The notes beneath the pieces are model-generated. The model was not told where the DNA came from. It saw nothing but the letters and a program-made list of their open reading frames with translations, and made no database searches. A DNA stretch of 31,212 bases from Fragilariopsis cylindrus CCMP1102 (Eukaryota; Bacillariophyta; Bacillariophyceae; Bacillariales; Bacillariaceae). Positions 1 through 22,629 of this stretch are shown here, one piece after another; the stretch's first letter is position 1; each line of letters begins with the position of its first letter. Position numbers and translations under genes: made by a program. The stretch is from contig FMBT01000639.1 of NCBI GenBank assembly GCA_900095095.1, positions 1 through 31,212 of the forward strand, read 5' to 3'.

Positions 1-3
1 ACT

Positions 4-1023
4 ATGTATAATTTAACAGTCATTGACACCTACTTCATTCAACCAATGATCAAGAAGAATCCCCGTTTCCGCCAAATCATCACGGCCGAATTTCGGAAAT
101 CTATCACGGATTGGCGTCTAGCCCCAACGAACTTCGAAGGCACCAAACCCCATGGGGGGCTTGGCCCTCTCACTTACGTCACCAGGTCGACGGCCGAGAG
201 AGAGAGACTCGAAAGTGTTCGCGCTCTCAACGCACAATGCGTACCAACGTCAGCCGACATAGAGCGCAGCATCCCAGGAACGCCACAGATTCCGGACACC
301 ATCGATGCCCTAATCACCAACCTGCAATTAACTCAACTAGGTTTAATACAGGTAATTGGCGACAGAGCGCCACCGTCAATTCAACTCCAGCGCCTGCTCG
401 ATGCCCTGTTCGACAACTACAGTCGTCTATCCGCCATAGCCAACTTCCGGGCTCTAATCAGCAACGAAATTATTTACCAACTGTGCCGCCATCTTGAGCG
501 GTATTTCGGCGTCTTTTGCACAGCAGAAGACGTAGCCGCCAAGCGTTTCCCGAAGTTCAACATCGATTTTCTCATCCTGGGTATCGAAAACAACAATTTG
601 TCCTTGTCGCACAGCTACGGTCCAATTTTCCTTCCAGCGAAGACTCCGGCAACGCCGCGACCCAGCCCTCCAACACCTACAGACCGGAATACAGACCGAA
701 AGCGAAATGCTGACAAGTCACCAAAGAAGGACAAACCTACAACACGCAAGGGTCCGGGATGCGACGCCATCAGAAAACTAATCGCGGACCACCGCGCAAC
801 ACATGACGGCAACTTCCCCCGCCTCTCGGACATCCGGACTGCCAACGAGTTCGGATCGACGAAAGAAATGTGCGAGGCCCTAGGCCTCAAATCGAGTAAT
901 TGTCTCAACTATGGGCTTTTCTGCTACTGCAACGGAAAATGCAAGAACACCCACCAGTCCGATTTCAGCGCTTATAAACCGGACAAGGCCATCGAGATGT
1001 TAAAAAAGGCCACCACCATGTAA
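4..1023 (+). CDS. ORF1, Gag-like protein of the YR retrotransposon
   Basis: An intact 339-residue ORF with an ATG three bases from the window edge; it could extend further upstream outside the window. Its role is inferred from position as first ORF before RT: a structural, nucleic-acid-binding Gag-like protein. The middle (about residues 215-250) is a basic Pro/Lys-rich linker. Near the C-terminus is a cluster C-x6-C-x-C-x3-C-x3-H (about residues 298-315), which resembles a zinc knuckle, the RNA-binding device of Gag proteins, although the spacing is not the classical CCHC. No protease motif (DTG/DSG) is seen. No specific family is recognised beyond this. ORF1 and the next ORF are separated by about 340 bases when the first ATG of the RT frame is used. 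Confidence 0.6.
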   Translation: MYNLTVIDTYFIQPMIKKNPRFRQIITAEFRKSITDWRLAPTNFEGTKPHGGLGPLTYVTRSTAERERLESVRALNAQCVPTSADIERSIPGTPQIPDTIDALITNLQLTQLGLIQVIGDRAPPSIQLQRLLDALFDNYSRLSAIANFRALISNEIIYQLCRHLERYFGVFCTAEDVAAKRFPKFNIDFLILGIENNNLSLSHSYGPIFLPAKTPATPRPSPPTPTDRNTDRKRNADKSPKKDKPTTRKGPGCDAIRKLIADHRATHDGNFPRLSDIRTANEFGSTKEMCEALGLKSSNCLNYGLFCYCNGKCKNTHQSDFSAYKPDKAIEMLKKATTM

Positions 1024-1359
1024 GCAACAACCAAATAACCGCCAGTAGCGAGTATACAGTAATTAAGTAATAACTATAAAACAATCTATGTTAATTTTCA
1101 TATATAATTTTCTCATTACCATCACCTGCTATAATGTTTCTCCAACCCCAGCGTACCGCCTAGGTTCACACTCCCGAGTGTGCCACACCCGCGGTTCACA
1201 CTACCGAGTATACCACCACCACCTCGTTCGCCATGCCGTCCAGACACTCCGTACAGGACACCGTATTGTCGACCGATCCCTCCACCGCCCCGACGACAAC
1301 CAGTCGACGACAATGCGTTTACTCCAACCCAAAGTAAGTTACCACAATTCAAAGGTTTA

Positions 1360-3644
1360 ATGTTTCCTCGTCATGAAGTTTTAAATCACCCAGCAGGTCC
1401 GGATCTGCTAGAATACGCACTCGAAGGCTGCCCAGTCGACTGCGGCGATGATTGGACTCTGGAGCGCCTAGAATTAGCAATCGCGAGTGGAGCACACTCC
1501 AGTGCGAACGTACCCGAAGCAGCAGCCGCATGCAAAAAGGAAGCCCTCGAACGCGTCACGGAGGGCTCCTGTCGCCTCGTCAATTGGGAGGACATCAAAC
1601 ATGATTTCCCCCCAAATCTAAAAATTTCACCACTAGCTGCAGTACCGCACAAGTCCCGCGTCTATCGGATGATCCTAGACTTATCCTTCCAGCTCCTCGT
1701 CAACGGAAAGAAGCTGGACTCAGTAAACAGTGCGTCCGACAAATCATTGGCAAAACAAGAATCAATGTACGAACTAGGGAACGTTATCCCCAGAATCATA
1801 TGGGCAATGGCTCTGTCGAAAGACAAAACGACACCTTTTATGTTCTCAAAAGTAGATTTAAAAGATGGCTACTGGCGAATGGCAGTCAGCGAAAAAGATG
1901 CATGGAATTTGCATACGTCCTACCAGGAGCAGGCCCGGACGACCCGGTACAACTCGTTATCCCGGACGCCCTCCAGATGGGCTGGAGCGAAAGCCCGCCT
2001 TTCTTCTGCGCCGCAACCGAAACGGCACGCGACATCATCAACGACAAGATGCGACATGACGTCATCATCGACGAGCAACCGATGGAAAACATCATGATGG
2101 ACATCGATTGGACCAAGATCAACAAACTTCACACTCCAATCGACTCGGAAACTGATAAACGGACGTTCCTTCAACTCATCGAGGTCTACATCGACGATTT
2201 CATCGGCGTAATCCAGAGCACCAACGAAGCCGATCTACTCCAGTTTTCACGTCGCATCCTCGACGGCATCACCAAGGTATTTCCGCCTCCGGAATTGTCC
2301 GGAAGCAAGATGGCACATCCGGTCTCGGAAAAGAAGCTTTTCGAGGACGGAATCTGGGACACCAGGAAAGAAATCCTAGGTTGGCTCTTCGATGGAATCT
2401 CACGCACCATCGAACTGCCACAACGTAAATGCGAAGAACTCCTTACCGAACTCAAGGCGATACGCCGCAAAGACAAGATTGAAGTAAAACGTTTCCAAAA
2501 ACTTCATGGACGACTACAATTCGCGACCATTGCCATACCATGTGGCAAACCAATCCTGGGACAACTAAATTGTTACATGGCCGCAGCTGCCAAAAACCAG
2601 GGTCGAAAAATCGAAGTAACAAACGACTTCGCAAACATCCTCCGGGATTGGTCAGCACTCATCCGTCTAGTCGGACGACGACCAACACATGTCTCCGAAC
2701 TCATCGAACATCCACCATCTTATCAAGGCTTCGTAGATGCATCCAAATGGGGAGTCGGTGGAGTCTGGTTCAGCGGCACAACGACCGTCGTCCCGATCGT
2801 ATGGTTCTTCGAGTGGCCGCAAGAAATACGAGACCAGTTTTGCTCGTCATCCAACAAAAGCGGGCAACTCACGATATCAGATTTAGAACTAACCGGAATA
2901 CTCATGCACTGGCTTGTTCTCGAGCACAGCGTGGACCCAATTACACTCCGGGGCGTCAGCGTCTCAATCTGGTGCGACAACCTCCCGGCAGTAGCGTGGA
3001 TGTACAAATTCAGGACGAGCACATCATTGGTCGCAGCACGAATCCTCCGAGCCATGGCGGTACGCCTGCACACCAACAGAACAGCATTACTCTCAGTGGA
3101 ACACATCTCCGGCATTTACAACAAAATGGCAGACGTTGCATCCCGCAAACATAGTCTCGACAATGCTACATTCCTCACCGACTTTTCCGCTCATTTTCCC
3201 CCACCACAGGACAAATCCTGGACTCTGTTCCTCCTCAGCAACAAAGTTACGTCAAAAGTCTCTTCGGAGCTGCTACAGAAGCAATCGACTTTGGAGTCGT
3301 GGCGTCGACTACCAACGAAAGAATACGTTTTTGGAAAGCTTGGACCCACTACCTCGCCATTTACTTTCCTACCTATGACGAAAAACTCAGTACACTTACT
3401 CAACAAGACAAAATCGAAGTGCTGGTCAGTTTCGCCCAACATGTGCGATCCGGAGGCGTTTCACGACAAAAACAACAAGTTCGTGCGCAAACAGTCCAAG
3501 TATCGCTTCGGGCCATCACAGCGCGTTTCGAGATGGACGGAGAACAAAGTCCGGTGGTTAACACGCAAGGAAAATATTATAAAAAAATCGGCCAACTTAT
3601 TGAGGGCTACCGACGAACCGACCCCCCTGCCAAATTCAAATTAG
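1360..3644 (+). pseudogene. Reverse transcriptase-RNase H ORF, one frameshift near 1908
   Basis: The RT copies element RNA into DNA and RNase H removes the template. The first ATG of the frame is at 1360; the frame is open further upstream without ATG. RT motif A (FSKVDLKDGYW) is near 1840-1875, a DIRS-type MGWSESPPFF block near 1977-2005, and the catalytic YIDDF box at 2187-2201. RNase H follows with all four acidic residues: Asp 2736-2738 in GFVDASKWG, Glu 2886-2888, Asp 2976-2978 in WCDN, and Asp 3132-3134 in MADVASR. Between motif A and the SPPFF block the reading frame changes by -1 (about 1905-1912, beside a short T run), as if one base were missing; no canonical slippery heptamer is present. 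The frame continues to 3644, overlapping the recombinase frame for several hundred bases. Catalytic residues are otherwise intact. Confidence 0.85.
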
Positions 3645-4404
3645 CAGTACCAATCAGTGTCCCAAGATACATGTATCACTACGCGTTAACAGGCACCGAA
3701 AAACAAAAGGCAGTGGCAGATATAGCCATCATCGCTTTCTACTATCTCCTCCAAGTCGGAGAGTACACGTACACTCCGACCTCAACCAAAAAGCTAACAC
3801 AAGCTTTCAGACTCCAGGACGTCACATTATGGGACAAGAATACCATCCTCGACCATAACCTCCCAATCGACGCCCTTTTAATCAGATGCACAGCAGCAAC
3901 TCTTCGAATATCGAATCAGAAAAATGGCAAACGAAACCAGGCAATACACCATTTTACAACAAATACGGATACATGCCCAATAAAAGCACTAATTAGAAGA
4001 GTCAAGCACATCACTGCTCACACTTCAGTCCGACTGCTATAATTAGCACGTATTTCGAACACCCGACTCACCAGGGCAAAGTAATGCGCGCAACCGAAAT
4101 TAACTCCGCGCTCAAAGCAGCAGTACTCCAACTCGACATGAAAAAACACGGGTTTGAAGCAGCGCAAATAAGCTCACACAGCTTACGCGCAGGAGGGGCG
4201 ATGGCGATGCACCTACACAACACCCCAACACACACGATTCGAAAAATGGGACGCTGGAGCAGCGACACTTTTCTCGACTACATCCACGAACAGATCGCTG
4301 TTTTTTCAGCCGGCCTGTCAACAGCGATGGGCAAGAACATTTTCTTCCATAACATAGGTTTTCGCGCCATCCCGACCCCTATTTTAGACAACGAAGATAC
4401 TTAA
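3155..4404 (+). pseudogene. Tyrosine recombinase of the retrotransposon, frameshifted near 4015
   Basis: This enzyme would integrate the circular element DNA through a tyrosine-linked intermediate. The frame is open from 3155 but has no ATG until 3532, although similarity to the N-terminal core-binding domain (RIRFWKAWTHYL) begins near 3315; it may be made by a -1 shift from the RT-RNase H frame. The first part stops at 4042. The rest continues in a frame offset by -1 from about 4015 to 4404. Box II is HSLR at 4177-4188, followed by GRWSS with Trp 4255-4257 and the nucleophile Tyr 4279-4281. Box I reads LLQVGEY: the position normally Arg (R-x-G-E) is Gln, codon CAA at 3752-3754, one transition from CGA. 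Loss of this Arg plus the frame break suggests an inactive copy. Confidence 0.82.
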
Positions 4405-4571
4405 TTAATATAAAAACAAACATTTACCCTAACTAATTTGCTCACAACTAGTCGCGCTCAAAACCACTGAGCTACCGAATACAGCATTCACAACGTTTTT
4501 GAGTTGATGCCATTCCGGTTTTACTCTCGCACATAATTTACTGTTTGAGTTCTAAATCCGTTACCAATCTC

Positions 4572-6305
4572 ATGCTGGAACAAATAGAAACAAACGGTTC
4601 AACTCTACCCACCATGCTAGATCCGTTGCAGGAACGGCAATCACCCATCACGGAGAACGCCACGACCGAAACGGCTCCAATAACAACGAAAAACCTGAAC
4701 TCACACCTGTCTCTAGGCAAACCAACAGGTTCAAAACCAACACCGGCTCACAATGCGGCAATAATCACACAAACGAAGTTTGCTCAACGAACTATAATCG
4801 AAAGTTACACGGATTTAGCCTGGTACAATTCACCACAATACTCCCATAAATCACTTTCACTAAATTACAAAAACGCAAATTGCAACAACACACTCCCTAC
4901 TAAAGCAAACATGCCTCTCAACCACACCATTCCAGGCTTCGAATCCCTAGGTGATGCTTACATCGAGATCAGTGCTCTCATCAACCGCGACTTTCACACC
5001 GAAATCACCGACGCCCAAGTGTACAACGCCGACTACGAGCTAGCTAAAGCCCGTCACATCCGAACTCTTCTCCGCAAAGGTACAACCACCGAACCGGACG
5101 CAAAACGCAGCAAGAACGATTCCCTGCCACAGTCCATCATGGCCTCCATCGCCGGGGCTTTCACCAACACCCCCCACCTCAACGTCCCCGAAATCAACAC
5201 TACAGCACTTGTGTTAATGGACATGGAACTACAACGCCATCGTAAACTTGCCGAAACAATCGATCTCACAATCGACACCCATACGGCACCTGTTCCCACT
5301 CCGCCGGCAAACATTCCGGCCGTCATTCCACCAGCAAACATACTGGCCGTCATTCCAGTCATCCCAACGGTTCCAATCACCCCAGGTTCACCAGCGGATG
5401 CAGCGCCAGGAATCGGAGATGACACCACTGAACCAACGACTCCGGTAAACAGAACTCTTTTTGGTCCCGAAACCGCGGCAGAGGCCGAAGCCAGGGAACA
5501 GACCGAAGAGACCGAAGCCCCGGTAGATCCCGAGGCCAAAGTATTCAAACATAATTGCACACCTTCCAAGGAGAGAAACGTCCACCACGCCAACGCAAGT
5601 GTCGGAGCAACACTACGCATCCACTTTGCAACTACTATGGTCGCGGAAACGGAACGACCATTCATCCTAACCTGCAAGAATGAAGATAACCCGCGAACTG
5701 CACTACAAGCGATGTTCACAATCATGGGTGTATGTGTACCTCAGGATTGGCTCGACGGCCTCTTCACGCCTGCTCACGACTACACAAAGGACAAAGAACC
5801 ATTGTTCACGATCCTCCGGAACCACAAAGGAGAAGACTATTTCAACTTACAAGACTACATGTCCGAGGCCACCAACCACGGCCTCCCATGTGACGTACAG
5901 GGATGTTTTCTAGGAAAAAACGGCGGAAATTTTAGCAAACAGGGTTTCACCACCACCAACCCACTCCTCTGCCAAATGGAAATCGAGGGGAATCTCGTCT
6001 CGCCTAAACCCGAGAAACATTACCAATGGGTAATCTATATTCCGACCATGAACATCGTAATCACGTGCAACGACTATGTCTCAACCTCCTCGAAGGCAGA
6101 CACATCACAAACCACGTGGTCACTAGGAAAAGGCACCCATTATGCATTATTGCACAAAGAATACTGCAGCATCAACAAACTCCTCGGAAAACTCATGTTC
6201 CCTGCAAAGAAGGACAACAACCGAAACCTAAAGTTGAACAGTGCAGTTTGGATTACAAACAAGCAATCCAACTTCAAATTATTCGATGATAACGTAGAAA
6301 ACTAA
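4572..6305 (+). CDS. ORF4, unknown protein downstream of the recombinase
   Basis: An intact ORF of 577 residues from the first ATG at 4572; the frame is open a little upstream without ATG. I do not recognise it. The N-terminal 230 residues are Asn/Thr-rich. A Pro/Ala/Val-rich, then acidic, low-complexity stretch follows (about 5270-5530). The C-terminal 250 residues (from about 5540) look globular, with Cys, Trp and aromatic residues spread through them. It lacks the GDS and DxxH motifs of the SGNH hydrolase that Ngaro elements carry after the recombinase, and lacks a DPPY-type motif of the adenine methyltransferase of DIRS1. An intact frame beside broken RT and recombinase genes suggests that it is a real element gene. 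It could be an accessory or Env/hydrolase-like product, but nothing in the sequence decides. Confidence 0.6.
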   Translation: MLEQIETNGSTLPTMLDPLQERQSPITENATTETAPITTKNLNSHLSLGKPTGSKPTPAHNAAIITQTKFAQRTIIESYTDLAWYNSPQYSHKSLSLNYKNANCNNTLPTKANMPLNHTIPGFESLGDAYIEISALINRDFHTEITDAQVYNADYELAKARHIRTLLRKGTTTEPDAKRSKNDSLPQSIMASIAGAFTNTPHLNVPEINTTALVLMDMELQRHRKLAETIDLTIDTHTAPVPTPPANIPAVIPPANILAVIPVIPTVPITPGSPADAAPGIGDDTTEPTTPVNRTLFGPETAAEAEAREQTEETEAPVDPEAKVFKHNCTPSKERNVHHANASVGATLRIHFATTMVAETERPFILTCKNEDNPRTALQAMFTIMGVCVPQDWLDGLFTPAHDYTKDKEPLFTILRNHKGEDYFNLQDYMSEATNHGLPCDVQGCFLGKNGGNFSKQGFTTTNPLLCQMEIEGNLVSPKPEKHYQWVIYIPTMNIVITCNDYVSTSSKADTSQTTWSLGKGTHYALLHKEYCSINKLLGKLMFPAKKDNNRNLKLNSAVWITNKQSNFKLFDDNVEN

Positions 6306-6732
6306 CAAGTCCTACAACCTCGACCATGTCCAGAGTCGTGCTACCCCAATAGCACTCCTGACTCAACCATTCCGACATCCATCTACACCGAGCAAATCGT
6401 AGACACCAGGATCACGCCTATACAATAACGACGTATCCAACGAACATCTTGTTAAAAGGTTCTATACCCCTAATCGAACCAAAAATTTTTAACTATACAT
6501 ATATAAAGAAAAGAGAATAATCAGTAGTTAACTAATAATCGTAACTTTCACCGAAGCTACAACTAGGTTGCAACACACAATATTTCATTCTCAACTTTCA
6601 CATTAGCTACACTAATACTAGAGTCTCACTCCCGTGCACATAGCCTGGCCTAACACACCCACGCTATGACCGGAAGTCATTTCAACATTCCACACATTTA
6701 TGGGACTATACCCAACTAAAGTTGGTTTGATG
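6306..6732 (+). other. Noncoding tail of the retrotransposon
   Basis: The 427 bases between ORF4 and the first terminal repeat contain no plausible coding frame. An AT-rich stretch with a TATATAAAG-like string near 6498-6507 could be a promoter or 3'-end signal. A short imperfect palindrome (CCAACT-AA-AGTTGG) lies near 6712-6725. Nothing else is recognised. Confidence 0.5.
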
Positions 6733-7001
6733 GAGGAAGCTCTTTTAGTATCTTTAGTGGCTAGTGAACCCCGGAACACAAGTGGTCCGGAATACACAAT
6801 CCACCAAAAATAGGTCACATCAGTTCAGTCCCGAGTTAGCCACGACTGACAACAATCAACCTCTTTTGACGAAACTATATACACTTAGATAGATCCAGAA
6901 AAACGTGTTCAACAAAACCGAGGTAAGCCAGAAGAATGATTCACAATAATTACTTTAGTCGCATAGCAACTCCGGCTAAATTTAGTGCAACTAAATTTAG
7001 T
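6733..7001 (+). repeat. Terminal direct repeat, copy 1 (B1)
   Basis: Every base read here matches 7201-7469 at an offset of 468. It begins GAGGAAGCTC and ends in two CTAAATTTAG palindromes. In the split-direct-repeat model this is B1, the inner copy. Perfect identity of the copies implies recent replication or insertion. Confidence 0.92.
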
Positions 7002-7200
7002 CAAGGAGTGTTAAAGCTGTAAAAAGGAATCAAGCGATTTATTTTTATACAACGCGCGCGCTAGTAGAAAAATCAAAGTCCAGAAGAGAAATCTATTCTG
7101 GACTCATTCTTTTGGAAACATCGTGTTTTGTTGTGAGGCAGCTCCGGAGCTGACGTGACCGCTGAAAGCGCTTCTTCTTCCACAACCATCCTCACTCCTA
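7002..7200 (+). repeat. Spacer between the repeats, predicted A2
   Basis: These 199 bases separate the two 269-bp repeats and match nothing else inside the window. In PAT/Ngaro elements this segment (A2) is a copy of the left terminus A1, which would lie just outside the window. It contains a hairpin with 9-base arms (7077-7085 and 7096-7104) and a perfect 14-base palindrome CAGCTCCGGAGCTG at 7139-7152. Confidence 0.6.
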
Positions 7201-7469
7201 GAGGAAGCTCTTTTAGTATCTTTAGTGGCTAGTGAACCCCGGAACACAAGTGGTCCGGAATACACAATCCACCAAAAATAGGTCACATCAGTTCAGTCCC
7301 GAGTTAGCCACGACTGACAACAATCAACCTCTTTTGACGAAACTATATACACTTAGATAGATCCAGAAAAACGTGTTCAACAAAACCGAGGTAAGCCAGA
7401 AGAATGATTCACAATAATTACTTTAGTCGCATAGCAACTCCGGCTAAATTTAGTGCAACTAAATTTAGT
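7201..7469 (+). repeat. Terminal direct repeat, copy 2 (B2), right end of element
   Basis: Identical to 6733-7001. The shared sequence stops at 7469, which marks the right boundary of the element; host DNA resumes at 7470. It ends 124 bp upstream of the ATG of the myotubularin-like gene, so this repeat may act as part of that gene's promoter or leader. Confidence 0.9.
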
Positions 7470-7593
7470 TAACGTATTACTGTACAGTACAGTGGTTTAA
7501 AATAATACCTTTTCTACAAAACATAAATACACATTTTTACAAAGATTTAGCCATTATCAACAAAATTAAATAACTCCACACGAATATACCGAA

Positions 7594-10500
7594 ATGAGTG
7601 AATCCTCGTTACCATCTGTCGAGGACGTCGATCTCGCAGACGATTCTCTCCAGGATCTTATAACAGAGGCGGAAACGTTGATGCGGGACTTGCCGCTACC
7701 GGAAAATAATACAACTACAAGTAGTGGCGCCACTGGCAGTGACGATGCTGTTGTGGATGTAAATATTACACCAGCACCAGCACCAGCACCAGCACCAACT
7801 GGCATCGGGACTTCTGTCGATACAGGATCGACAACAAACGATATTGGAGGAAATTTCTCGATTGATGACGAAGATGACGATGACGATGACGACGACAATG
7901 ATGGTATTATCAACGATGACCCTCTCCAAGCTAATATGAGTACCGGTGCGGCGTTAGCGACACCGATACCGGCTGTACAAGAAGGAATACACGATCATCC
8001 GCTTCATCCGCTTTCGGCCGATCGTTTGTCTACTCCCACCATATCTGCGCATAACACACCACCCACTTCTGGCAACAGTGCCAATTCCAATGCCATGCCG
8101 AATATTTTCAACGGTAGTAACGGGATTGGAATGATGAATATGGGAAGAGTATCAGGAGGTGCTGGAGAAGCCGCTGCAGTTGCCGCTGCTACTACTAGCA
8201 TGTTTGCTTCCAATTTCGCATCGATGGCTCAAGGAATGGCACAACGAGGTATGGCTCAAGTTGCGGCAGCCACAGCGCCACCCCAAGCGGTGCACGTGAT
8301 GGGATCGCAACAATCGACGAGGATGATGCAAGGGCAACAACAAGTAACAGGAATGGCTCAACCTTGGTCGAATGGGATGAATAACAATGTGTTCTCTAAT
8401 ACAGATATGGCGACGAATTCGGCGGGGACGGTGGTCGCCAATGCAGGAATGGGCATCGACGAACAACTTGACAAGGATCAAAAAAGTCGTCTTCTTCAAG
8501 AAAATGTTGGGGACTTGTTGGACGGTGAGCGTGTTATCATGTTTCTGACGAATTTACTCCATGTTAGTGACACGTCGGGATTGTCCTATGTCGCTTCCCA
8601 GCAGTCCCAGCATTCATCAGGATCTACAATTATGTGGTGTTGTGTCATGACCTATTATCGCCTCATTCTTTTTTCAACGGCACGTAATGATAGCAAACAT
8701 ATAGAAGCACCCGATGGTTGGGATCAAAACTGTTGGATGACCGCAAACGACCCCAGCATGTCAATCCAGCTCCTCGAAATACCTCTAGCATCTATGGATC
8801 GCGTCGAAAAGACGGTATACCAGGCCGCCGGATCGAGTTTTATGGGTCTCGTTGTCCACGGAAAGGATTGTGGTAGAGTTATTCGATTTACAACCCCTAG
8901 TTACGCCGACACTGGGCGAGCATTCGAATCTCTTAATACGTACGCCTTCCCCGGCCGAAGAAACTTAGGATACCTCTTTGCATTTGAATCGAAACGCCAA
9001 GAAGTTATTTCTAGTATAAAAATGGACGAAGTAACCCTCCCACCTACGCCTAGACGCTTTGATCCTATGACGGAATATCCACGATTGATCCAGAAGACAG
9101 GCATTACGCAATCACCCTGGGCACTTTGGGCTTCTGTCAATTCATCCTACAAACTAAGCCCATCTTATCCATCCGTTTTGGTTGGACCAGCCTCCCTTGA
9201 CGAGACTAAACCAGAAGCCCTAAGTGTTATTCGACAATGTTCTACCTTCCGAAGCGGACAACGACTTCCAAGTATGACGTGTGCGGTACGGGTGGTTCAT
9301 CCATTTGGCGATCGTCTCAACCTAAGGTCGGTTTGCAAGGTAATCGTAGCCCTGCAGATGAACTATACATTCGACACATCATAGAATCCGCGAGAGGAGC
9401 AAATGCTATGAGTGAACCTAATAATATATATCCCCGTAGTGTTTTAGAGCAATTGACTGGTGATTATACTGTTAGTAGCGGCAATGGAAAGAGCGATATC
9501 TGGGTGCCAGAACCAGGATGTGGCTTGAAGATCTTGGACTTGAGACCAAAATCGTCCGCTTTGGCAAACAGAACAGGGGGTGAGTCTTGCATATTGAAAG
9601 GAGGTGCTGAAATATCTTTGAACGGTGTCCGTTTTGATTGTTGTAGTGACTAGCCATATAGTCGAGTTCATTTCTTCGTTTTATCTAACAAAAAAAATAT
9701 GTTCTTGCGGATGCGACTCTTTTATTTCTTCTATGCGGCCTCGTTGTTTTGTTCTTGGTTATTGTTAGGGTATGGATACGAAAATACCTCGAATTATTCC
9801 AACACGACCCTGCAATTTTGTAACATACAGAATATTCATGGTGTCCGCGATAGTTACCAGAAATTATGTAATGTTTGCAGCAGTAAATCTGCCTCAGATG
9901 TACAATGGAATTCCTTGATAGAAGATACCAGATGGCTTTCTCATATTCGGACTATTCTCGCTGCATCTTGGGAGACTGCGTATTGGGTTCACGTGTGGAG
10001 AATCCCTGTTCTGGTTCATTGTAGCCATGGATGGGATCGGACATCACAAGCAGCATGTCTGGCCCAGCTATTTCTCGATCCTTATTATCGCACTCAGCAC
10101 GGCTTCGGTGTTTTGGTTGAAAAGGATTTCATGAGCTTTGGACATCCATTCCACCTTAGGTGTGCACACGGCGAGGGTAGAAGTGATGTCAAGAACAATT
10201 CAAAGTCGTCGTCGATTGACGAAGGTCAGATTTCCCCAATATTCTTACAATTTTTGGACTGTGTTTACCAATTGGTCCAACTTTATCCAAATGCTTTTGA
10301 ATTCAACACACAATATTTGCTTATCTTGTCATTTCATGTATACAGCTGTCGCTTTGGAAATATGCTATGCGACACGGAGCGAGAACGTGAAATCATGGCT
10401 AGTATTCGACAACGAACCTACTCAATTTGGGATTACCTCGAAAGCAAATCCGAGTGCCTGAACCAAAGTTACTTGAAGAGCGAGGGCGTCATGCTGATGC

Positions 10501-16362: not shown

Positions 16363-17213
16363 ATGAAATTTTCACTAGCTTCTATTGTTCTTATGGGCGT
16401 GTCCGCCTCCGCTGTCGATCTTACTGCCGACGTAAGTATTTCCATTCCATGTACTTGTCCGGTGTACTGTATCTAGATGATTTCAATCAAGGATCATCAA
16501 AAAAGAAATGATCCGTCGAAACAATTCGACCATTAATTATAAATGACCGCTGTCCTTACCTCATTTCTTGCCTTCTTTTTAATTTTCTTTATATACAAAT
16601 AATAAATGTTAATCCAAAATAGAACTTCGATGAAATGACTGCCGGAAAGGTTGTCTTCTTGAAGATGTTTGCCCCATGGTGTGGACACTGTAAGAAAATG
16701 AAACCCGATTGGGACAAGTTAATGGATGATTTCAAAGACTCAGAAACACAATTGATTGCTGATGTCGACTGTACCGCTGAAGGCAAACCTGTCTGCGATA
16801 GCAACGGTGTCAAGGGTTTCCCCACCCTTAAGTTCGGTGACCCAACCGACTTACAAGACTACCAAGGTGCTCGTACTTACGAGGCCCTTAAAAAGTTCAT
16901 TGAAGAAGACCTCAAACCTAGTTGCTCCCCCGCCAACCTTGACTTGTGCGACGATGACAAGAAGAAGGAGATCGAAGCTCTTTTTGCCCTCGATGATGCC
17001 ACCCTTGACGAAAATATCGCTACCGAAATGAAGAAACTCGATGATGCTGAAAGTGAATTCAAGGCTGCAGTCGAAAAACTTCAAGAAACTTACCAAAAGC
17101 TTATGACCGATAAGGAAGCAACCGAAGACTCTGTTAAGGAATCCGGTCTCGGTCTTATGAAGTCTGTTAAGGCTGCCAAGGCCAAGGCTGCCGTAGGTAG
17201 TGATGAGCTTTGA
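16363..17213 (+). CDS. ER protein disulfide isomerase-like protein, single thioredoxin domain
   Basis: Two exons, 16363-16431 and 16623-17213, around a 191-bp phase-0 intron (GTAAGT...AATAG), give 219 residues. Exon 1 encodes a signal peptide (MKFSLASIVLMGVSASA). Exon 2 opens with a thioredoxin fold carrying the active site WCGHC (CGHC at 16680-16691) and the cis-Pro region GFPTLKF. The last 90 residues are helical and charged, predicted to be coiled or ERp29-like rather than a second thioredoxin domain. The C-terminus is SDEL, a KDEL-type ER-retrieval variant. The protein would form or rearrange disulfides in secretory proteins. Classical PDI has two catalytic domains and about 500 residues, so this is a short PDI-like form. 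No frame breaks. Confidence 0.9.
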
Positions 17214-20393: not shown

Positions 20394-22629
20394 ATGACGG
20401 AAGACACTGCTAATATCAAAAATGAGGAGGAACAGAAAGTTGCCGCTACTACTACCAATAAAGATGAAAGTAAAAAGAAAAAGAAGAGAGTGATTGTGCG
20501 ACCTCCTTGTCCTCCTGCAGTTTCCACCGGATACCTAATTTTACGTGGTGTCCTGCAAAGTTTAGTTGGTGCTAGCATGGACGAAGCCGTTGTTTCGCTG
20601 TTGCAGCCTACGTATATCAAAGAAAACGTCCCATCGGGAAAGTTCTCCATCAATTTTGGGAAGAAACTTGGATCTTGCGAGTTGGATTTACCGGAGGAAG
20701 ATGAATCACCGACGTCAATTGCTGAGTTTTGGAAGACCCTCCAAATTGCATTGGATCGAATCATTGCAGAGGACATTCCAATTGTCACAAGCGATTCGAT
20801 TCCCAAAGAACAAGCCCTGAAAGATTACGGAGAAGGAATTCTCAATGGTGGTATTCAAAAAAATAAGGCTTCCGATCTTTTGCCGTGCTGCTCGATATCG
20901 GGTATTGTGTTGGCCGTGCCGCCTAGTATCCCCTACGCTACAACGGGATCCATCAAGGGAATCGTACTAGAGACTAATCAATGCAGTATTAATGCTGGTA
21001 AGAAAGCACGCAAGGCTGAAATTACGCTCAAATTCAAAGTGGAAGAAAAAATAGATGGCAGTGGTGATGCGTCATCACCTGCATTGGCAGAAATTTTGCC
21101 TCCCGACTCTTTTTCGGAAATAGTGACTCAAGAAAGCTTGGCTAGTCTACGAAAGAATGAAATTCGTCTAAAGGAAGGACGGTTGCTAGTTGTAGCTGCG
21201 GCAACAGAGAAAGACCAAAAAGAAAAGGATTCTACTAATGACGAAGAAGCAGCGGGCAAAGATAGTAACGAAGAAATGGTTGTTAATGCCTTTGAAGTCA
21301 AGGGTGAAATTGATTACACTAAGTTGGTGGACGACTTTGGTTCCACACTAATCGATGATCCTCTTATGAAACGTATTGAAGCTTACGCAGTTGGAAAGGG
21401 CAATGTTACAAAACTTCATCGTTTTCTACGACGGGGCATTTACTTTTCTCACCGTGACATGAACGCCATTATGGATTGTATAGAAAAGGGAAAACCAATG
21501 TATTTATACACCGGTCGAGGTCCTAGCTCATCATCGATGCATATCGGCCATTTGATTCCTTTTTTGTTCACACAGTGGCTGCAGAAGGCGTTCAATGTTC
21601 CGTTGGTAGTGCAAATGACAGACGACGAAAAATTCTTATTTAAGGGCAAATACGAGAACGAGACTGGAGATAACTTAGATTATTACGCTGGACTTACCAT
21701 TGAAAATGCCCGTGACATTATAGCATGTGGGTTTGATTACAAAAAGACATTCTTGTTTTCCGATTTAGATTATGTTGGAACTATGTACCCCAACATTGTT
21801 CGTATTTGGAAGGCCGTCACGAATAATACTGTAAATGGCATTTTTGGTTTCGACGGTTCTGCTAATATTGGTACGTAATTGATCTGTATATGTAACTGCA
21901 ATGTACATTTCTAATTCACCGTACCAATTTCTATAATTTTTACGATGAAGGAATGGTTGAACTAAATATTGTTTATTTTGTTTCTGTTCCTCTATACTAG
22001 GTAAAATCGCATTCCCAGCGATCCAAGCCGCTCCATCTTTTGCATCGAGCTTCCCCGTAGTCCTGGAAGAACCGAATCCTCGTGGAACTAAGGCAGTGTG
22101 TTTGATTCCCTGTGCCATTGACCAGGATCCTTACTTTCGCATGACGCGAGACGTTGCTCATAAACTTGTTGGTAAGGATCATGCGATGGGCGGCAAGCCG
22201 GCCTTGATACATTGTAAATTCTTTCCCCCGCTACAAGGCTCCAACGGCAAAATGTCCAGTAGCGACGAAAACTCGGCCATCTTCTTGACTGACACACCTG
22301 AGGAAATTGAACGCAAAATTAAAGAGAATGCCTTTTCGGGTGGACAGGAAACGAAAAAGCTCCAAGAAGAGCTAGGTGCGAACTTAAATGATGACGTAAG
22401 CTACCAGTGGTTGTCATTCTTGTTGGAAGATGACGACGAACTTGCTCGTATTGGAGAGGACTATGGATCAGGAAGTGGTGAATATTGGTCTACGGGTAAA
22501 GTTAAGGCGCGGTTGATTGAGGTCCTTCAAGATTTAGTGGCCAAGCACCAGGAGAAGCGTGCAAAGATTACAGATGATGAAATTAGAAAGTGGATGGTGC
22601 AGCGCAGTATTCTGGTAAAGGAGGAATAG
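20394..22629 (+). CDS. WARS1: Cytosolic tryptophan--tRNA ligase
   Basis: Charges tRNA-Trp with tryptophan for cytosolic translation. Two exons, 20394-21870 and 22001-22629, around a 130-bp intron (GTACGT...ACTAG) that splits a Gly codon in [17 protein letters not shown]; product 701 residues. The class I catalytic core begins near 21300: the HIGH-type motif is [10 protein letters not shown] (about 21535-21560), followed by [20 protein letters not shown] and [16 protein letters not shown]. The KMSKS-type loop is KMSSS at 22249-22263. These are eukaryotic-cytosolic signatures, not those of the organellar bacterial-type enzyme. The first 300 or so residues are an extension much longer than the WHEP domain of animal enzymes and do not resemble it; their function is unknown. 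No targeting peptide is evident: the N-terminus is acidic, then Lys-rich. Frame intact. Confidence 0.95.

Follow-up and report, generated by a model that had tools for sequence, protein, structure and literature searches.

A contig of the diatom Fragilariopsis cylindrus CCMP1102 carries two identical direct repeats close to one another, which raises the question of what kind of mobile element ends in this way and how such an end could be rebuilt in each round of copying. We refer to the contig, analysed over its whole length of 31,212 nucleotides, as the window (FMBT01000639.1; labelled C282). The original prediction, made from its letters and open reading frames, took positions 6733-7469 for the split-repeat end of an element that combines a reverse transcriptase (RT) with a tyrosine recombinase (YR). 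A survey of the genome (67.9 Mb in 818 contigs; layout scored for 40 of 41 candidates), in which 104 matches to light-harvesting proteins (PF00504) mark a photosynthetic eukaryote, bears this reading out through the layout of 13 loci and an RT-RNase H fold. The region very probably forms the right end of a split-direct-repeat tyrosine-recombinase retrotransposon of 10.32 kb, A1-[ORF1, RT-RNase H, YR, ORF4]-B1-T-A2-X-B2, that would replicate by the cycle proposed below and exchange ORF4 as a cassette. By layout and gene order the element appears to be of a kind already known, Ngaro/PAT-type, and the exchange of ORF4 is its unexpected part. This algal family is young and still heterozygous, and because it consists of many near-identical copies, the templated regeneration of B, integration at a single T and solo by-products become readable from sequence.

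Organization of the repeat block

As had been claimed, two identical 269-bp repeats surround a 199-bp segment: both a repeat search and direct base comparison find 6733-7001 and 7201-7469 to be the same over all 269 bases. The repeat search returned a slightly longer pair (6733-7004 and 7201-7472, 272 nt, 100%), and a mismatch follows directly after the 269-base run (C at 7002, T at 7470). Comparison with other copies sets the repeat unit proper at 268 bp followed by a T (269 with the T), and the order across 6733-7469 is B1-T-A2-X-B2-T (Table 1). The spacer, 7002-7200, comprises a 178-bp A2, the repeat that ends at CTTCTTCTT, and a 21-bp segment, X, that is missing from A1. X lies outside the plain A1-B1-A2-B2 scheme and thereby counts against a simple split-repeat model. 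It occurs once each in 32 of the 75 loci compared, is exact in an old remnant of the block on C631 and, by eye, is one base off in its counterpart on C425. The A repeat contains a hairpin with nine outer pairs (7078-7105), of which C631 has changed two pairs on both sides with pairing kept; seven pairs are kept in C103, C354 (A1) and C525, and C425 has lost the hairpin.

Table 1. Coordinates of element features in the window (C282)
Feature	Position	Strand	Basis
End of nested LTR-like element, ACTATGTATAATTTAACA	1..18	.	91 genomic places; missing from reference copy
GTCATT, putative 6-bp duplication flanking the nested insertion, second copy on C66	19..24	.	C66/window alignment to reference
ORF1, 3' part (Gag position); 5' part on C66	19..1023	+	Open frame; full ORF in C349
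Predicted RT-RNase H ORF, interrupted, open pieces 1135-2097 and 1605-3644	1135..3644	+	RVT_1 in homologues; predicted fold
Putative tyrosine recombinase ORF, interrupted, open pieces 3155-4042 and 3997-4404	3155..4404	+	Weak Phage_integrase match
Putatively exchanged ORF4 cassette, approximate limits, core = ORF4 coding sequence	4500..6520	+	C340-C209 50-bp identity profile, carried over by alignment
ORF4, type II, intact, 577 aa, no recognised domain	4572..6305	+	Open frame, family search
B1 repeat	6733..7000	+	Repeat search, copy comparison
Internal junction B1|T|A2, TTTAG-T-CAAGG = both element ends joined	6996..7006	+	Copy comparison
Single T between B1 and A2	7001		Copy comparison
A2 repeat (= A1 at left end of other copies), with 9-bp hairpin	7002..7179	+	Copy comparison
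X, 21 bp, after A2, not after A1	7180..7200	+	Copy comparison
B2 repeat, element's right terminus	7201..7468	+	Repeat search, copy comparison
Single T at right junction, extra versus empty site	7469..7469	+	Empty-site comparison

Copies across the genome

A search for further copies, suggested as a check of the predicted layout, returned 13 near-identical loci with the full B1-A2-B2 block, matching over 728-737 of 737 bases at 99-100% identity, which rules out a chance origin of the layout. The anticipated order A1-body-B1-A2-B2 holds: in 11 of these loci A1 is found some 10 kb to the left in the same orientation, and in the other two (the window and C562) the contig ends before the position of A1 is reached. 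The copy on C349, which serves as reference, measures 10,319 bp from CAAGG to TTTAG, and the 11 full copies are 98.6-99.9% identical to one another outside ORF4. A1 equals A2 over 178 bp in seven of the ten copies compared; one mismatch each in C260 and C299 and two gaps in C340 count against the model. The expectation that A1 would equal all of 7002-7200 was thus right for 178 of the 199 bases and wrong for the 21 bases of X.

Shorter derivatives accompany the full copies. Solo A-X-B units stand on C90 (L052-L053) and C103 (L054-L055), and the copy on C156 (L049-L050) has a single B and no A2; these are the two shapes expected from loss between repeats. Some copies have a left flank in common (390-690 bp at 99-100% identity) and differ in their right flanks, namely C398/C299 (L012, L024) and C260/C298/C505/C553/C156 (L018, L022, L057, L058, L050). 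Because the left flank is shared without the right one, single contigs may be misjoined; misassembly, duplication and recombination between copies are all possible sources of this pattern. C631 and C425 (L061-L064), once candidates for additional full elements, hold only an old B1-A2-B2 remnant adjoining a long ORF of tandem PS-rich repeats, and probably represent a single locus in two alleles, with 86-96% identity in pieces.

The window copy and its nested insertion

It had also been predicted that the bases just left of the window would match 7002-7200. Here the prediction failed: the window starts inside the element, behind a nested insertion, and the bases just left of it are not shown to be A1. 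The 18-mer with which the window opens is present at 91 genomic places (45 + 46; none for the reversed control), frequently paired at a spacing of 8.6-8.8 kb, and marks the end of an abundant LTR-like element. After these 18 bp the window enters the element at reference position 2877, which places A1 another 2.88 kb of element leftward. The matching left part is found on C66, which carries A1 and element positions 1-2882 at 99.8% identity, followed by unrelated DNA starting TGTACG. LTR-type insertions follow a TG...CA rule at their ends. The hexamer GTCATT stands on both sides of the nested insertion, since the element part of C66 ends at 2882 and that of the window starts at 2877, and this pair would be the duplication expected of a nested LTR-type element.

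A third contig, C150, speaks to the link between the two. In C150, the last 150 bp of the C66 left flank (99%) abut the right flank of the window (531 bp, 95%) with no base between them. This empty site joins both flanks, so one haplotype lacks the insertion, of which C66 and C282 are best taken as the two halves. Against this link, C66 extends 15.5 kb past the nested insertion without reaching the right half of the element, and none of the places listed for the window's 18-mer lies on C66.

The window copy itself looks dead, with interrupted RT and YR frames, a glutamine in place of an arginine in YR and a nested insertion that splits it. The claim that the identity of B1 and B2 marks a young copy is borne out but incomplete: the identity reflects recent templated copying, but the copy that carries it no longer looks alive.

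Junctions, integration and a proposed replication cycle

Compared with the empty site on C150, the filled site contains one T beyond CAAGG...TTTAG and no 4-6 bp duplication; at this one clean empty site, integration left no target site duplication. A second empty allele, C405 for C398, has both flanks but 28 extra bases at the junction, and joined-flank searches for C166, C209, C260, C81 and C340 returned no empty site; both results count against a general rule. The base left of A1 is T in all 12 loci counted (C298, C505, C553, C156 and C299, whose flank is common with a counted locus, were omitted and also have T), and a T also stands left of A in the solo units C90 and C103. Right of TTTAG the base is T in 10 of 14 loci, that is in 10 of 13 plus C103, which has C (this count excludes C562, whose flank is that of C166, and the truncated C298). 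With T at every left junction and at only 10 of 14 right ones, the junction T resembles the first base of the element itself more than a duplicated target base, although both are possible. A flanking match at C324, GAATGAATCGAA, was rejected as a target duplication, as the site is GAAT-rich and the other ends compared show no such match.

The internal B1|A2 junction, TTTAG-T-CAAGG, equals the right terminus joined to the left terminus. Relative to C349, ten B variants at five distinct positions occur in a copy's B1 and B2 alike. They fall in five of 13 copies (one each in C209 and C299, two in C81, three each in C324 and C471), and as C81, C324 and C471 have two of them in common, they partly represent one lineage. 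The remaining seven of 13 copies carry no B variant. Counting against a strict rule, C299 and C471 each have one unshared B difference, and five more are listed at the very end of B2 in C298, where that copy is truncated. Sharing of variants between B1 and B2 within a copy is what templated regeneration would predict. In the cycle that we propose, an RNA in which A1 and B2 are each incomplete would undergo reverse transcription, and the internal B1-T-A2 block would serve as the template for completing and joining the ends into a DNA circle. The YR would then recombine the B2|A1 junction of the circle with the target at a single T.

A pair of identical direct repeats at one end would also be seen in an LTR or simple terminal-repeat retrotransposon that had undergone a local duplication of its right end. 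The original prediction had named a B repeat at the left end as the sign of such an element; none was found there, and all ten left ends compared start with A, which contradicts the LTR model. Recurrence of the same B1-A2-B2 layout in 13 loci and the clean empty site, with one T in place of a 4-6 bp duplication, speak against it as well, and we give a local duplication next to no credence. The split-repeat reading leaves a further choice concerning the solo units on C90 and C103 and the single-B copy on C156. YR acting on the pair of B|A junctions in the circle could have produced them, in place of homologous recombination, and both shapes expected of such a reaction are indeed found. However, homologous recombination of A1 with A2 or of B1 with B2 yields the same shapes, and two cases of the one and one of the other are too few to decide; we hold an origin through YR to be possible, if doubtful.

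Proteins encoded by the element

The identity of the RT rests on homologues of the interrupted frame in the window. RVT_1 is matched by 15 of 38 RT homologues at E<=0.01, although the closest homologue, P0001, has no Pfam match itself. The predicted model of P0001 (pLDDT 84) matches the RT structures of MMLV, foamy virus, HIV and Ty3, with a best E of 4e-13, low TM scores by query (0.24-0.35) and 11-17% identity; this predicted fold indicates that the element encodes an RT-RNase H. RT relatives are abundant: 7988 scored candidates yielded 443 proteins at E <= 0.001, and the 120 of these that were listed are 39-99% identical. A scan of viral contigs with the RT found no relative. C260, C299, C324 and C340 keep an RT frame of 836 open codons; in the window copy this frame is broken.

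Of the 12 listed copies that include YR, eight have an open frame of 415-416 codons and four (the window, C398, C471 and C81) have a split one; sequencing indels are a possible source of the split frames. The match of YR to Phage_integrase is weak (E 0.007, 16.6 bits) and falls below the 27.1 cut-off, which counts against the assignment. YR has no PDB sequence match, and PDB sequence searches with YR, the single RT and ORF4 returned no row below E 0.4. By eye, the motifs LLRVGEY and HSLR and a C-terminal Y may correspond to the R-H-R-Y residues of a tyrosine recombinase. At the expected first catalytic arginine the window reads YYLLQVGEY, as opposed to YYLLRVGEY in all 11 other copies where the motif was found. 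ORF1 matches no Pfam family above cut-off. A methyltransferase domain was not detected by Pfam in the ORF1, RT, YR or ORF4 pieces, a weak test because Pfam missed the focal RT too. In C81 (L043), the loss of about 120 bp between ORF1 and RT creates one open frame of 1760 codons.

ORF4 as a probable exchanged cassette

Upon comparison of the 13 loci, ORF4 stands out from the rest of the element. Five loci carry a type I version (C349, C398, C260, C209, C298), seven a type II version (C282, C166, C324, C340, C471, C81, C562) and one, C299, a type III version. Types I and II share 42% protein identity and differ most in the middle part. When C209 is compared with C340, C166 and C282, dS is 1.12 in ORF4 (1.55 for C209 versus C282 by protein-guided alignment), as against 0.000-0.036 in YR, 0.006-0.012 in RT and 0.008-0.022 in ORF1. 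C299 shows ORF4 dS of 0.35-0.46 versus 0.025-0.071 elsewhere, and C156 reverses the pattern, with 0.045 in ORF4 and 0.30-0.57 in the backbone. The approximate limits follow the borders of the gene: in 50-bp windows, identity between C340 and C209 drops at 7350, some 70 bp ahead of the ORF4 start, from 100% to 74%; it is back at 92% at 9200, just past the stop, and at 100% at 9400. A diverged ORF4 in a near-identical backbone, together with the reverse in C156, calls for gene exchange between lineages. Thus ORF4, with three diverged versions in one backbone and one of these recurring in a second, diverged backbone, appears to be exchanged as a cassette.

Could the mosaic arise otherwise? If two families had been misjoined inside near-identical repeats during assembly, ORF4 would only seem to be exchanged, and the contigs with common left and different right flanks (C398/C299 and C260/C298/C505/C553/C156) are possible misjoins of this kind. 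Yet type I is present in five and type II in seven of the 13 loci, the breaks falling at the borders of ORF4, and to the right of ORF4 identity is back at 92-100%, so that an artefact would need two misjoins per contig at the same places; we judge it improbable. Even less credible is that ORF4 diverged in place under very fast selection, without exchange. The concentration of differences in its middle part would suit such a course, but synonymous dS reaches 1.1-1.5, as exchange predicts, beside a nearly unchanged YR, C156 shows the opposite pattern, and dN/dS between types is 0.36-0.60, not above 1.

Cassette exchange is hence the reading that we follow for the gene itself. Its dN/dS values of 0.36 (I-II), 0.43 (I-III) and 0.60 (C209-C156), and of 0.09, 0.44 and 1.0 between close copies with few changes, indicate a protein that is mostly, if loosely, constrained. 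ORF4 is found on 15 contigs (28 matches of 29 candidates in the genome search), all of which carry element repeats. Its protein relatives are P0121 (98%, type II), P0124 (99%, type I), P0125 (87%, type I) and P0122, by eye the version on C354; these searches were word-limited, and more distant relatives may exist. No Pfam family matches ORF4 above cut-off, and AlphaFold, run from six sequences, gave no usable fold (pLDDT 30).

The proposed model casts ORF4 as an accessory gene that has passed as a cassette from one element lineage to another; the likeliest routes are template switching among co-packaged RNAs and recombination of cDNA circles. On a more tentative reading, which is less likely than not, ORF4 may be an exchangeable host-facing module that co-packaged RNAs swap by template switching, much like retroviruses, so that one successful backbone would circulate with several diverged versions. 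In C156, the second backbone, high identity extends from ORF4 through B as far as the right end and resumes from A1 to about position 1000; on a circular intermediate this would be one continuous tract, as would be expected if the exchange took place in cDNA or in the circle. The swaps constitute direct evidence that YR retrotransposons residing in one genome recombine, and they suggest that selection may favor differences in this gene; ORF4 is the part of the element that deserves specialist attention.

Relation to known elements

Layout and gene order resemble those of Ngaro-like elements (PMC8547959, PMC9210276, PMC6681497, PMC4157794, PMC3266345). Those of Cafeteria burkhardae (PMC8547959) and Xenopus (PMC9210276) have the same A1-[ORFs]-B1A2B2 layout and the same order of a Gag-like ORF, RT-RNase H and YR. 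The Cafeteria elements also leave solo AB units but measure about 6 kb rather than 10.3 kb (PMC8547959), and the 21-bp X between A2 and B2 is a feature of the element described here. Amphibian Ngaro has a fourth ORF after YR, which encodes an SGNH hydrolase (PMC9210276); our ORF4 shares this place, but has no SGNH hydrolase domain detectable by Pfam and occurs in exchanged, diverged versions. The PAT-like elements Pat1, Toc3 and Kangaroo, of which Toc3 and Kangaroo are green-algal, likewise combine split direct repeats with a YR (PMC4157794, PMC3266345). They differ in that no methyltransferase domain was found here by the weak Pfam test, in that YR and RT lie on the same strand here and on different strands in Kangaroo, and in that the internal repeats here lie downstream of YR. 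VIPER/TATE of kinetoplastids, also YR retrotransposons with A1 on the left and B1, A2 and B2 on the right, differ in host group (PMC6681497). Comparable to ORF4 in behavior are retroelements of bdelloid rotifers, in which an extra 3' ORF (env, GDSL or exonuclease) is modularly common to lineages of LTR and Penelope-like elements (PMC5408684); here, by contrast, one orphan ORF occurs in diverged versions within one near-identical YR backbone. From diatoms, a Crypton, another YR element, has been reported (PMC3212892), and a Gypsy/DIRS1 class has been tabulated (PMC8613185). None of the titles and abstract openings surveyed describes ORF exchange within a split-repeat family.

Outside the element, the window contains an ORF at 16635-17213 that by eye we presume to be thioredoxin/PDI-like (WCGHC), and one at 20394-22629 that, again by eye, presumably resembles a tRNA synthetase.
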